From Pseudonocardia sp. HH130630-07 (GTDB lineage: Bacteria; Actinomycetota; Actinomycetes; Mycobacteriales; Pseudonocardiaceae), in the NCBI RefSeq assembly GCF_001698125.1, contig NZ_CP013854.1, positions 4,774,001 through 4,838,000 on the forward strand: a stretch of DNA of 64,000 bases, given 5' to 3'. How positions within the stretch are numbered: position 1 is the first letter of the stretch; each line of letters begins with the position of its first letter. Under the pieces are notes generated by a model. It did no database searches. It saw nothing but the letters and a program-made list of their open reading frames with translations, and was not told where the DNA came from. Shown in pieces: positions 5,052 to 9,325 of this stretch. The position numbers and the translations under genes were made by a program.

Positions 5052-6329
5052 TCAGCCCGGCAGGAGCCGGCCGAGGGGCCCGCGATCGGCGGAGGGCAGG
5101 GTGACCGTCACCGCGAGCCCGCCCCGCTCGCGCGGCACGGCGCGTGCGGCACCACCGTGCCCGTCCGCGATCGCGCGCACGATCGACAGGCCGAGTCCGT
5201 GCCCGCGCGGACCCGAGCGCGTCCCGTTGCGCCGGAACCGCTCGAACAGCCGCTCCACCTCGTCGGCGGCCAGCACGTCCCCGGTGTTCTCGACGACCAG
5301 TTCGGCGGCGCCGTCCCGCCCGCGGACCGTCAGGGCCACCGATCCGCCGCGGTGGTTGTGGCGGATCGCGTTGTGCAGCAGGTTCACCACCAGCCGGCGG
5401 AGCAGCTCGGCATCGGCGAGGACGACGGCGGACCCGAGATCCCGGTGCGTCGTGACCGTCCGCCCGGCCGCCTCGGACGCGACCTCGTCGAGCGCCTGCG
5501 CCGCGGTGTCGGCCAGGTCGACCGGCTCGGCGGGGTCGAGCGCGTGTTCGGCCCTGGCGAGGGTGAGCAGCGCCTCCACCGTCGCGATGCTGTGCTCGTT
5601 GGAGGCCAGCAGTTTCCGCAGCAGGTCGGCCGGGTCGTGGGCGCCGGGGTGGGCCAGCGCGACCTGCAGAGCGGTGCGCGTCGCCGCCAGCGGGGTGCGC
5701 AGCTCGTGCGAGGCGTTCGCGGTGAACTGGCGCTGGGCGTCGAGGCCGTCCTGGAGCCGGTCGAGCATGGCGTCGATGGACGCCGACAGCCGGGTGAACT
5801 CGTCGTCGCGCCCGTCGCGCGGTCCGATCCGGATCCGTTCGTGCGGGTTCCCGTCGGCGATGTCGCGCGCGGTCGCCGTGATGCGGTGCACCGGGGCCAG
5901 CACCCGCCCCGCGACCACCCAGCCCAGCAGTGCGCCGAGCAGGACGAGGGCCAGCAGCGCCACACCCGAGTAGTGGACGAGGGCGTGCAGGACGTCGGCG
6001 GCGCTGCGGATGGCGCCGTCCGGACTCCGGACGAGCGCGGGGTCGACGTCGATCTCGGGCAGGGCGGGGATCACCTCGGCCCCCGGGACGACCGTCCCGG
6101 CCGGGTCCGCCGGTCCCGGACCGGGCGGTACCGCGGGGACGCCGCCCACCGGTTCCCCGATCGCCGGGAGACCCGGCTCGCCGGCGAGCTCGTAGGTCGG
6201 GACGTAGCGCATCAGGACGTAGAGCGCGGCCAGCATGACCAGGCCGCAGGCGAGGGCCCCGGTGGCGATGAGGAGGGTGAGACGCAGCCGCACCGAGAGC
6301 CGGCCGAGCAGCGCCCCGCGGCCGCTCAC
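5052..6329 (-). CDS. Two-component sensor histidine kinase
   Basis: A 425-residue membrane kinase with TM1 (about 15-40), an extracytoplasmic loop (41-120), TM2 (121-141), HAMP (142-195), HisKA with phosphoacceptor His208 in NASHELRTPL, and HATPase_c with NLLHNAIRHN (N box) and GHGLGLSIV (G box). The loop is low-complexity and rich in Pro and Gly. Its motifs GEPGLP (50-55) and IPALPE (87-92) also occur, in the same order, in the small secreted protein encoded at 7152. The GTG start overlaps the stop of the response regulator gene by 4 nt (GTGA), so the two are one translational unit. Confidence 0.95.
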   Translation of the reverse strand: MSGRGALLGRLSVRLRLTLLIATGALACGLVMLAALYVLMRYVPTYELAGEPGLPAIGEPVGGVPAVPPGPGPADPAGTVVPGAEVIPALPEIDVDPALVRSPDGAIRSAADVLHALVHYSGVALLALVLLGALLGWVVAGRVLAPVHRITATARDIADGNPHERIRIGPRDGRDDEFTRLSASIDAMLDRLQDGLDAQRQFTANASHELRTPLAATRTALQVALAHPGAHDPADLLRKLLASNEHSIATVEALLTLARAEHALDPAEPVDLADTAAQALDEVASEAAGRTVTTHRDLGSAVVLADAELLRRLVVNLLHNAIRHNHRGGSVALTVRGRDGAAELVVENTGDVLAADEVERLFERFRRNGTRSGPRGHGLGLSIVRAIADGHGGAARAVPRERGGLAVTVTLPSADRGPLGRLLPG

Positions 6330-6988
6330 GGGCCGGTCAGCCGGTAGCCGACACCGGTGACGGTCTCCAGGACCATCGGCTCACCCAGCTTGCGGCGCAG
6401 GGTCGACACCGTGATGCGCACGGCGTTGGTGAACGGGTCGACGTGGGCGTCCCAGGCCTTCTCCAGTAGCTCCTCGGCGCTGACCACGCCGCCGCCGGCC
6501 CGCATGAGCAGCTCGAGCACGGCGAACTCCTTGCGGGTCAGCCGGATCGGGACCTCGCCGCGCCGCACGTCCCGGAAACGGGGATCGAGCCGCAGGTCGC
6601 CGTGGGTGAGGACCGGGGGATGGGCGCGCACCGAGCGCCGGAACAGGGCGTGCAGCCGGGCCACCAGCTCGGGGAAGTCGAACGGCTTGACCAGGTAGTC
6701 GTCGGAGCCGATGCGCAGGCCCTCGACCCGGTCGGCGAGCCGGCCCGCCGCGGTCACCATCAGCACCCGGCAGTCCGGCCGGTCGGTGACGACGGTGCGG
6801 CAGACCTGGTCACCGTGCACCCCGGGGATGTCGCGGTCGAGCACGACGACGTCGTAGTCGTGCACGTCCACGAGTTCCAGCGCGTCGTGCCCGTCCGTGG
6901 CGAGGTCGACCGCCATGCCCTCGCGCCGCAGGCCCAGGACCAGGGACTCCGCGAGGAGGGCCTCGTCCTCCACCACCAGTACTCGCAC
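6326..6988 (-). CDS. OmpR/PhoB-family response regulator
   Basis: A 220-residue regulator. The receiver domain has the acidic pocket VVEDE, phosphoacceptor Asp51 in VVVLDRDIPG, and Lys101 in YLVKPFD. The C-terminal winged helix (about 128-220) has ELLEKAWD and the recognition segment VRITVSTLRRKLG, ending VTGVGYRLTGP. The frame stays open upstream, but GTG at VRVLVVEDE has an AAGGAC ribosome site and matches the canonical start. It is upstream of and coupled to the kinase, and divergent from the small secreted protein. Autoregulation through the intervening palindrome is a reasonable inference. Confidence 0.95.
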   Translation of the reverse strand: MRVLVVEDEALLAESLVLGLRREGMAVDLATDGHDALELVDVHDYDVVVLDRDIPGVHGDQVCRTVVTDRPDCRVLMVTAAGRLADRVEGLRIGSDDYLVKPFDFPELVARLHALFRRSVRAHPPVLTHGDLRLDPRFRDVRRGEVPIRLTRKEFAVLELLMRAGGGVVSAEELLEKAWDAHVDPFTNAVRITVSTLRRKLGEPMVLETVTGVGYRLTGP

Positions 6989-7103
6989 GTCGTCCTTACC
7001 GTCTGCGGTCGCGCCCGGGCGCCCAGCATCGCGGTGATCGGTTATGGCGAGTGTATCGAGATCGGCAGACGCTGCCGAGAGGCCCGGTGAGATCGACTCC
7101 GGG

Positions 7104-7129
7104 GTGCCCGGGACGGCCGTCCCGGGCAC
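7104..7129. promoter_or_regulatory. Perfect 26-bp palindrome between response regulator and secreted protein
   Basis: Arms GTGCCCGGGACGG and CCGTCCCGGGCAC abut with no spacer, forming a perfect 26-bp inverted repeat. It sits in the 163-bp divergent intergenic region, 22 bp upstream of the ATG of the secreted protein. It could be the operator of the neighbouring response regulator or a hairpin in the 5' leader. OmpR-type regulators usually bind direct repeats, so another regulator or an RNA role is also possible. Confidence 0.6.
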
Positions 7130-7151
7130 CGACGACGAACGGAGTCCACCC

Positions 7152-7412
7152 ATGTCGATCTCGAAGTCCATCGGCGGCGCCGTGGTCATGGCGGCGTTCG
7201 GCCTGCTCGCGCTCGGCGGGACCGCACTGGCCGACGCGGGGAGCAGCGTCCCGCCCCCCACCTGCATCCCGGCCGGTGAGCCTGGTGTGCCCGCCGAGCC
7301 CGGCCCGGTCGACCCCGGCACCCCGACGATCCCGGCCCTGCCGGAGTACCCCGGGGTCCCGGACTGCACCCCGGACTCGCTGCCGACCCCGGGTGTGCCC
7401 GCCGGCGGCTGA
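7152..7412 (+). CDS. Small secreted Pro/Gly-rich protein next to a two-component system
   Basis: An 86-residue protein with a clear Sec signal peptide: basic start, hydrophobic core about 9-25, and probable cleavage after TALA or ADA near 27-29. The mature part is about 58 residues, rich in Pro/Gly and acidic, with two cysteines (38 and 72) that could form a disulphide. It contains GEPGVP (42-47) and IPALPE (60-65), both echoed in the loop of the kinase encoded at 5052. The ATG is preceded by GGAG. I recognise no family. It may be the signal, target or accessory subunit of the sensor. Confidence 0.75.
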   Translation: MSISKSIGGAVVMAAFGLLALGGTALADAGSSVPPPTCIPAGEPGVPAEPGPVDPGTPTIPALPEYPGVPDCTPDSLPTPGVPAGG

Positions 7413-7431
7413 ACCCGACCGGTGTGACCAC

Positions 7432-7465
7432 GGCCGGCCCGGCGCCCACGGGTGCCGGGCCGGCC
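7432..7465. terminator. Bidirectional hairpin terminator candidate
   Basis: GGCCGGCCCGGC and its complement GCCGGGCCGGCC flank GCCCACGGGT, giving a stem of about 15 bp with a small loop. It lies between the stop codons of the convergent secreted-protein and MazG-like genes. It has no U tract, which is usual in high-GC actinobacteria. Confidence 0.6.
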
Positions 7466-7484
7466 GGCCCGTCCGGACCGACGG

Positions 7485-7844
7485 TCAGGGCCGGCCCAGC
7501 TCGGTGTACTTCGCGCTGCTGCTCCGGGACAGCTCGACGGGATGGCGGGACTCGTTGCGGGTGACCTTGGCGTGGGCCTCGGCGACCGGGTCGATGCCGC
7601 ACACCTGGCCGAACCAGACGAGGTAGATCAGTACGTCCGCCACCTCGTCGGCGAGCCGGGCCCGCAGCTCGTCACCGATGCCCGCGGCGATCTCGGCGTC
7701 GCCGGTCCACTGCAGTTCGGTGACCAGCTCGCCGACCTCGCCGGTCAGCGCGAGGGCCAGGTTCCGCGGGGTGTGGAAGCGTTCCCAGTCGCGGGCCGCG
7801 GCGAAGCGCTCGATCCGTCCGCCGAGGTCGTCGAGGTCGTCCAT
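7485..7844 (-). CDS. MazG-like nucleotide pyrophosphohydrolase (dCTPase type)
   Basis: A 119-residue all-alpha NTP pyrophosphohydrolase. The E-x2-E and E-x2-D metal-binding motifs are seen as EVGELVTELQW (about 36-46) and DEVADVLIYLVW (about 66-77), with the DCTPP1-like ending AxxKxxxNxxRHPV. Members hydrolyse dCTP and modified dNTPs to monophosphates, cleaning the nucleotide pool. The ATG start follows the usual short N-terminus. It is monocistronic and convergent with the secreted protein gene. Confidence 0.85.
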   Translation of the reverse strand: MDDLDDLGGRIERFAAARDWERFHTPRNLALALTGEVGELVTELQWTGDAEIAAGIGDELRARLADEVADVLIYLVWFGQVCGIDPVAEAHAKVTRNESRHPVELSRSSSAKYTELGRP

Positions 7845-8344
7845 GGCCCGGAGGATAGGCCGGTGGCCGCGCGGGCCCCGGCCGCCGGTGCCCGCTCGCC
7901 GGGTCCACCCCGCGGCCCTCCGCGCCGAGGTGCAGCGGAGCGGGCCCGGGCGTGCTCCCCGACCCCGCTCACGCGCATCTCGGCACCGGCGATCCCGGCC
8001 GGCCGGTGGGGCGTCGTCCCGTGCGCACGCGAGCCGGGTTCCGCCGTGTCACTCCCGTCCCCCGACCTCGGCCTGGGCCGCGCACCTGCACGCCGATCGC
8101 GCGCCCTGCTCCGGCGTGCCGCACCTTCCGCGTGGAGTGCGACGCGCCGGGCCGGGGCGCACGAGACCGGCACGGATGTCCCGGTGTGCCGCACCCTCCT
8201 CGACGGGTGCTCCGCGCCGGAGCCGGGTGCGTCTTCCGGGAGAGGGGCACCGCCGTGCGGGGACGGCCGCGAGCCGCCGGTGCCCCGTGCGCGGAGCGGA
8301 GTCGACGGGCGACGGTGGTTCCGGAGTGCGGGACAATCGACGGG
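7845..8344. other. 500-bp gene-free region rich in GTGC/GCAC
   Basis: No frame here has protein-like composition; the open frames are Arg/Pro-rich shadows. The tetranucleotides GTGC and GCAC occur roughly twenty times, clearly more than base composition would give. GTGCCGCACC occurs twice about 70 bp apart. It must hold the promoters of the divergent MazG-like and aldo/keto reductase genes, but I see no clear -35/-10 pair. Confidence 0.4.
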
Positions 8345-9325
8345 GTGCGCTACCTCGACGACTTCGCGACCCCGGCCCGGTGGTCGGTGATCGGCCTCGG
8401 GACCTGGCAGTTCGGCTCCTCGGAGTGGGGCTACGGCCCCGGCTTCGCCGGTGCGGCGACGCGGATCGTCGCCCGGGCCCGCGAGCTGGGCGTGACTGTG
8501 TTCGACACCGCCGAGATGTACGGCCCCGGTCGCAGCGAGCGCATCCTCGGCGACGCGCTGCGCGCCTCCGGCGGACCGGACGGCGCGGTCGTCGCGACGA
8601 AGTTCCTGCCGGTCCTGCCACTCGGCCCGGTGCTCCAGCAGCGCGCCGTCGCCTCGGCCGACCGGCTCGGCGTGCCGACGGTCGACCTCTACCAGATCCA
8701 CAAGCCGCACCCGGTGCTCGGCGACGCCTCCGCGATGCGCGGGATGGCCGCGTTGCAGCGGATCGGGCTGGTGCGCGAGGCCGGGGTGTCGGCGTACTCG
8801 CTCGCCCGCTGGCGGCGCGCGGAGCGGGACCTCGGCGCCCCGGTGCTGTCGAATCAGGTCGAGTTCAGCCTGCTGCGCCGCGAGCCGGCCACCGATCTCG
8901 TCCCGTACGCCGCGGAGCACGGGCGGATCGTGCTGGCCTACAGCCCGCTGGCCCAGGGCCTGCTCACCGGCCGCTACGACGAGACGCACCGGCCGTCGAA
9001 CACGATCCGGCGCAACACCGCCTGGCTGCCGGAGAACCTGCGCGCGCTGCGGCCGCTGCTCGACGTGCTGCGCGACGTCGCGTCCGCGCACGACGCGACG
9101 CCGGCCCAGGTCGCGCTGGCCTGGGTGGTGCACCACCCCAACACCGTCGCGATCCCGGGGGCGTCGAGCGTCGCGCAGCTGGAGTCGAACGTCGCCGCGG
9201 CCGACATCGTGCTCGGCCCCGCCGAGCACGCCGGGCTCACCGCGGCGGCCGCGGCGGTGCACCGGACGATCGGCCCCCGCCGGTTCCCGGCCCTGGCCCG
9301 GGACCTGCTCGGGTCCCGGGTCTGA
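8345..9325 (+). CDS. Aldo/keto reductase
   Basis: A 326-residue NADPH-dependent TIM-barrel oxidoreductase. Catalytic tetrad residues are visible as VFDTAEMYG (Asp and Tyr), ATKF (Lys) and YQIHKPH (His). The C-terminal IPGASSVAQLESN is the cofactor 2'-phosphate binding loop. The frame extends about 130 codons upstream, but that part is low-complexity. GTG at VRYLDDFATPARWSVIGLG places the family N-terminus correctly. It reduces or oxidises small carbonyls; the substrate is unknown. Confidence 0.85.
   Translation: MRYLDDFATPARWSVIGLGTWQFGSSEWGYGPGFAGAATRIVARARELGVTVFDTAEMYGPGRSERILGDALRASGGPDGAVVATKFLPVLPLGPVLQQRAVASADRLGVPTVDLYQIHKPHPVLGDASAMRGMAALQRIGLVREAGVSAYSLARWRRAERDLGAPVLSNQVEFSLLRREPATDLVPYAAEHGRIVLAYSPLAQGLLTGRYDETHRPSNTIRRNTAWLPENLRALRPLLDVLRDVASAHDATPAQVALAWVVHHPNTVAIPGASSVAQLESNVAAADIVLGPAEHAGLTAAAAAVHRTIGPRRFPALARDLLGSRV

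Follow-up and report, generated by a model that had tools for sequence, protein, structure and literature searches.

Within the 64,000-nucleotide stretch of contig NZ_CP013854.1 of Pseudonocardia sp. HH130630-07 analysed here (the window), positions 5052 to 7412 carry a two-component regulator-kinase operon and, on the opposite strand, a small gene for a secreted protein rich in proline (Pro) and glycine (Gly). The sensor histidine kinase (5052..6329, minus strand, GTG start) contains HAMP, HisKA and HATPase_c domains and two transmembrane segments recognized by eye, which enclose an extracytoplasmic loop (residues 45–118; 5976..6197, minus strand) that is Pro-rich and devoid of cysteine (Cys). 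The response regulator (6326..6988, minus strand) was assigned a GTG start at the VRVLVVEDE codon by eye, and its gene overlaps the start of the kinase gene by 4 bases. Its Response_reg and Trans_reg_C domains and the three kinase domains all scored above the curated Pfam cut-offs, which identifies the pair as an OmpR-type two-component system. On the other hand, the NCBIfam models for VanS-O and VanR-O reached only 178.8 of 720 and 251 of 505 bits, respectively, and a VanRS-O assignment was rejected.

The secreted protein (86 residues; 7152..7412, plus strand, ATG at 7152) is encoded divergently, 823 bp from the kinase start. It consists of a signal peptide ending at about residue 27, as judged by eye, and a mature part of about 59 residues with exactly two Cys; no Pfam or NCBIfam model matched this open reading frame (ORF). 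The divergent promoter contains an 11-bp-period direct-repeat site (7043..7069), the proposed operator of the regulator, and a perfect 26-bp palindrome (7104..7129) lies in what is presumed to be the leader of the secreted gene. The gene starts, the loop limits and the signal-peptide cleavage were placed by eye and with regular expressions.

To follow this arrangement across relatives, 390 Pseudonocardiaceae genomes were searched with the kinase at E≤1e-70, yielding homologues in 17 genomes from 9 of the 46 genera. At 16 of these 17 loci, a divergent gene encoding a Pro-rich protein with a signal peptide lies 163–245 bp upstream of the regulator. The mature secreted proteins contain exactly two Cys in all 16 cases, whereas the kinase loops contain none (16/16), and most of the secreted proteins are built of repeats like C-x-PA-x-PLPPGTP-x-VPA-x-PI. 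The kinase loops are short and variable across the modules, in contrast to the retained secreted protein: they measure 34–43 residues in the 14 modules outside Pseudonocardia, where the long Pro/Gly insert of the window's loop is not seen. The regulators of these 14 modules are 74–77% identical to that of the window, as compared to 95% in the sister species G043. In this genus neighbour the kinase is 88% identical (78% in the loop and 92% in the kinase core) and the secreted gene occupies the same place; all nine differences between the two mature secreted proteins fall between the two Cys, and none outside. The earlier note on this DNA, written from the sequence alone, had proposed a three-component unit, and this proposal is borne out by the 16 divergent gene pairs and by the conserved direct-repeat site that lies between the operon and the secreted gene. 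The secreted gene, the regulator and the kinase are thus a real conserved unit. They look like a dedicated signalling unit because they are kept together across relatives around one shared control site.

A fourth conserved gene was sought in the neighbourhood and rejected, as every other family was limited to at most 3 of the 17 loci, in a survey where the ORF picker took wrong frames at some loci and neighbours could be missed; the flanking genes are mostly different. The sole kinase without a secreted gene, that of G031, sits on a long branch (1.9); the accompanying regulator shares 65% identity with that of the window, and the genome yielded no secreted homologue at E≤0.001. Downstream of this kinase (loci L117 and L003) lie ORFs at L003:2897-3708, which we presume to be of the IS3 transposase type. 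A kinase tree, from which the kinase of locus L108 was left out, gave weak support (66/23) to a grouping of the module kinases that excludes G031.

Aligning the 16 intergenic regions revealed a single conserved block: read on the strand of the secreted gene, a direct repeat with an 11-bp period precedes GATC-N-CCAGA, giving the overall pattern TATGG-N5-ATATGG-N-GATC-N-CCAGA. When 21 genomes (16 with the module and 5 without) were searched with up to 3 mismatches, the site was present in 14 of the 16 module genomes, always only in the module's own intergenic region; in one of them (G298) it was found twice, overlapping, on both strands. It was absent from the 5 non-module genomes, and a reversed-pattern control gave no match in any of the 21. 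The simplest reading of this conservation is that the repeat serves as the regulator's operator and would control both transcription units. As for the palindrome, G043 largely retains its stem with a compensating change, and hairpins of different sequence occur at a similar place in several other loci. The leader fold z-scores ranged from −6.0 to +0.2 among 16 leaders, with 7 at −2.8 or lower (for L114 an overlong leader was folded), values suggestive of a structured leader RNA in the secreted gene. A search of Rfam with positions 6900–7500 gave one match, with an E-value of 0.43 and a score of 19.8 bits where the gathering score is 71.8, which was taken as chance. Further along the window, the ORF at 7952..9325 (plus strand), presumably aldo/keto-reductase-like, also has relatives close to the module at loci L118 and L105.

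The earlier note had been drawn to two motifs that the secreted protein shares with the kinase loop, and the coordinates bear them out. GEPGLP (6165..6182) and IPALPE (6054..6071) in the loop, both on the minus strand, recur as GEPGVP (7275..7292) and IPALPE (7329..7346) in the secreted gene on the plus strand, as located by a whole-genome motif search. The order is the same, while the spacing is 37 codons in the loop and 18 in the secreted gene, and the best local alignment of the loop with the mature protein takes a register different from that of the motifs. The best point in favour of the match is that IPALPE is encoded exactly twice in the 6.68-Mb genome, once in the loop and once in the secreted gene. 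For GEPG[LV]P the count is 27 places including both of these, in a search that did not cover TTR leucine codons. A shared word of at least six residues arose in 315 of 5000 dipeptide-preserving shuffles and in 40 of 5000 residue shuffles.

We also compared both segments with 325 predicted proteins from the same genome, sampled as 20 pieces of 20 kb (400 kb) and consisting of mechanically chosen ORFs, some of them probably in the wrong frame. A word of six or more residues in common with the loop was present in 7 of the 325, one being the 8-mer AEVIPALP, and in common with the secreted protein in 1 of the 325. The raw alignment score between loop and secreted protein was 73; against the secreted protein the best sampled score was 69, so that none reached 73, and against the loop 2 of the 325 reached it. 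Whether the two segments are more alike than either is to other proteins of the genome has a divided answer. By raw alignment score the pair stands above the own-genome sample, in favour of the earlier suggestion, whereas with bias-corrected HMMER scores the similarity lay elsewhere: at E≤10 in a search of the complete genome, the secreted protein matched 7 other places without the loop among them, and the loop matched 12 other places without the secreted gene among them.

In the nearest orthologue, G043, the loop reads GTPGVP and PPGLPE and the secreted protein GAPGVP and VPVLPE, both motifs being changed in both proteins. Nor was co-variation of loop and secreted protein found, as the loops of the 16 loci were no more like their own partners than like those of other loci (permutation p 0.13). 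The idea that the shared motif marks the secreted protein as a competitor, ligand or sheath is thus not supported, in view of homologous loci that lack the motif and of HMMER searches that lead elsewhere. Motif mimicry was rejected on the pairing test, the shuffles, the own-genome scans and the orthologues: the motifs are changed in G043, there is no preference for the own partner, and dipeptide shuffling itself produces 6-mers. The match rises only weakly above chance. It is an ordinary, lineage-specific similarity of low-complexity sequence and not the mechanism, and is probably a by-product of the proline richness of both proteins.

A profile built from 15 secreted proteins matched 35 of the 390 family genomes at E≤0.001, comprising 16 with modules, 4 with strong orphan homologues and 15 whose matches were all weak (2e-7 to 1e-3); three of the latter were inspected (G319, G261 and G316). 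The four orphans (G355, G204, G192 and G214) have a strong secreted homologue in a genome without the kinase at E≤1e-70, and no kinase or regulator pattern was seen within about 8 kb around them. The best regulators of these genomes are 59–65% identical to that of locus L103, as compared to 76–95% among the module regulators. Across a class-wide sample of 394 genomes, which included a few from the same family, the window's own genome was the only one that the profile matched at E≤1e-6. Among the 15 members, a set without the G167 protein, no Pfam or NCBIfam family was taken as real, and the profile had no sequence match in the PDB at E≤0.1. Two further secreted proteins deserve mention. At L154:587-898 (minus strand; G347, contig C17), a second Pro-rich two-Cys homologue is closer in style to the Pseudonocardia form, and no kinase or regulator pattern was found in the 5 kb read there. 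At L153:3956-4330 (minus strand) in G319, a small secreted low-complexity protein without Cys lies opposite a different regulator-kinase pair.

Beyond the family, 397 genomes of the order were searched with the kinase at E≤1e-65, and six further kinases were obtained besides that of the window, two within the family (G142 and G172) and four outside. For all six, the gene beyond the regulator and opposite the kinase strand encodes a Cys-containing extracytoplasmic protein with CMRxNGVxxPDP-type repeats. The same arrangement is present at L068, a Streptomyces locus, and at L063 of Mycetocola, where the motif is weaker. The proteins at these eight loci (L185, L186, L187, L188, L189, L190, L068 and L063) are mostly lipoproteins by eye, and none of the five members scanned had a Pfam or NCBIfam match above cut-off. 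A further ORF comes after the repeat gene at L190 and L068, which we take to encode a peptidoglycan-binding or HlyD-like adaptor. Among the paralogue stretches of the genus (L004–L030), the motif occurred in 3 of 27, with about 1.5 kb of flank covered. These neighbours resemble the secreted family in their position opposite the regulator, their Cys and their extracytoplasmic location, but differ in that the mature regions show no similarity and the module's site was not found: in seven next-nearest kinase loci, with limits set by hand, its best match had 9–10 mismatches. A common origin of the two protein groups was considered and rejected, since hhalign gave a probability of 22.8 from signal-peptide similarity only. 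Its nearest outside relatives being partnered by another protein, the kinase is not sufficient to define the module.

The layout resembles two known systems, although the unit itself is unnamed in the libraries searched. The earlier note knew of no described system of this kind, which was too strong, given that in both HbpS-SenS-SenR and CpxP-CpxRA a secreted or periplasmic protein acts on the linked kinase. CpxP, the best working analogy, is a small extracytoplasmic protein of enterobacteria encoded divergently from the regulator-kinase operon, as at 16 of the 17 loci here; its regulator binds the shared promoter and the protein is titrated off the kinase (PMC6737893 and PMC3158067). The protein here differs in being Pro-rich with two Cys and in coming from another phylum, and feedback is here only proposed; CpxR, moreover, has many targets, whereas the candidate site was seen only at the module. 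No CpxP/Spy-type Pfam family was among the matches of the 15 members at E≤1, and the NCBIfam hits to CpxP-family (3 of 15, best E 0.012) and Spy (2 of 15, 0.14) were taken as chance. In the Streptomyces system HbpS-SenS-SenR (PMC4991794), the secreted protein is likewise encoded with the kinase and regulator, in actinobacteria, and acts on the sensing domain of the kinase. HbpS is octameric and binds heme and iron, whereas the protein here is Pro-rich with two Cys, and no HbpS-type heme/iron-binding family was found in Pfam, NCBIfam or, at E≤0.1 with the profile, the PDB. In CutRS, an envelope two-component system of Streptomyces, the activity of the kinase can be set by two conserved extracytoplasmic Cys (PMC12802291); there the pair resides in the kinase CutS, whereas here it resides in the separate secreted protein, and the CutR motif TAWATAAA given in that text differs from our site. 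PMC6629963 lists a secreted protein, regulator and kinase beside secDF in S. coelicolor (SCO6160–SCO6163) as jointly raised, and its authors propose that secDF and the two-component genes share an operon; by its description, this is possibly another arrangement of such sort. No such module is named in the literature searched, which covered partial texts and no subscription papers.

We propose, with a probability of roughly 0.6, that these genes form an autoregulated, dedicated three-gene module with the secreted protein as its output. The kinase would sense an envelope condition and phosphorylate the OmpR-type regulator, which is predicted to bind the 11-bp direct repeat and thereby to control, in a direction likewise presumed, its own operon and the secreted gene. 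The two-Cys Pro-rich protein would be the main, possibly the only, high-affinity output. In the least certain step, the protein may also exert feedback on the kinase, in the manner of CpxP and CpxA; we put the chances of this somewhat below even. The proposal builds on the co-conservation, divergent order, conserved site and two invariant Cys observed directly at the loci, and the output role is favoured because strong orphan secreted genes exist while a kinase without the gene is rare, the one case being the long-branch G031. Several observations weigh against it. Co-conservation does not show that the secreted protein contacts the kinase. The threshold of 1e-70 gives no clean border of the family, as G902, outside it, lies at 5.3e-72, and the G142 and G172 kinases, at about 1e-66, face a gene for the different, Cys-repeat protein. 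In addition, the search at up to 3 mismatches missed the site in the module genomes G370 and G129, and the site in the window itself departs from the pattern at 3 positions. The pattern was drawn from the same loci, so that only its absence elsewhere is independent, and weaker regulator sites can escape it.

The probability given refers to the module-and-output reading, which overlaps with an explanation that differs only in denying feedback. There, the regulator controls the secreted gene, and the protein never contacts the kinase and works in the envelope as a scavenger, a metal- or cell-wall-binding protein or a chaperone-like factor. The four strong homologues whose genomes lack both the kinase and a close orthologue of the regulator, the short, variable loops beside a conserved secreted protein, and the absence of loop-partner covariation all speak for such a pure output, and we hold it a tentative possibility. 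However, the near-constant linkage of a small secreted gene to one kinase would also be expected of an accessory sensor, and the next-nearest kinases also lie opposite a Cys-containing extracytoplasmic protein. The accessory role can be taken further, since the Cys pair sits in a separate protein and not in the kinase as in CutRS: a kinase with only a minimal, Cys-free loop might leave the sensing to a detachable sensor domain, the co-encoded secreted protein, although we judge this unlikely. Its two invariant Cys would then report the extracytoplasmic disulfide or redox state, with the protein level set by the same regulator, which is similarly doubtful; the same layout with an unrelated Cys-repeat protein might serve the wider kinase clade, an extension no less improbable. 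The model of the earlier note, in which the secreted protein acts as a loop mimic, either competing for a common ligand or packing against the loop itself, fares worse and is very improbable in view of the motif analyses. That the secreted gene is a chance neighbour unrelated to the kinase operon agrees with the lack of a family annotation linking them, but is hardly credible against a linkage of 16 in 17 loci across 9 genera with mostly different flanks and a conserved shared promoter; a single recently transferred block is not suggested either, given the regulator identities of 74–95% and the differing flanks.

The module reading thus replaces a tempting motif-based inference with a unit that combines a secreted two-Cys family for which neither Pfam nor NCBIfam has a model with a candidate operator that was seen nowhere but at the module. 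Its target, partner and feedback can all be tested directly within a single small locus. If the secreted protein were indeed the sensor, these bacteria would possess a kinase whose sensing domain has been placed in a separate, diffusible protein.
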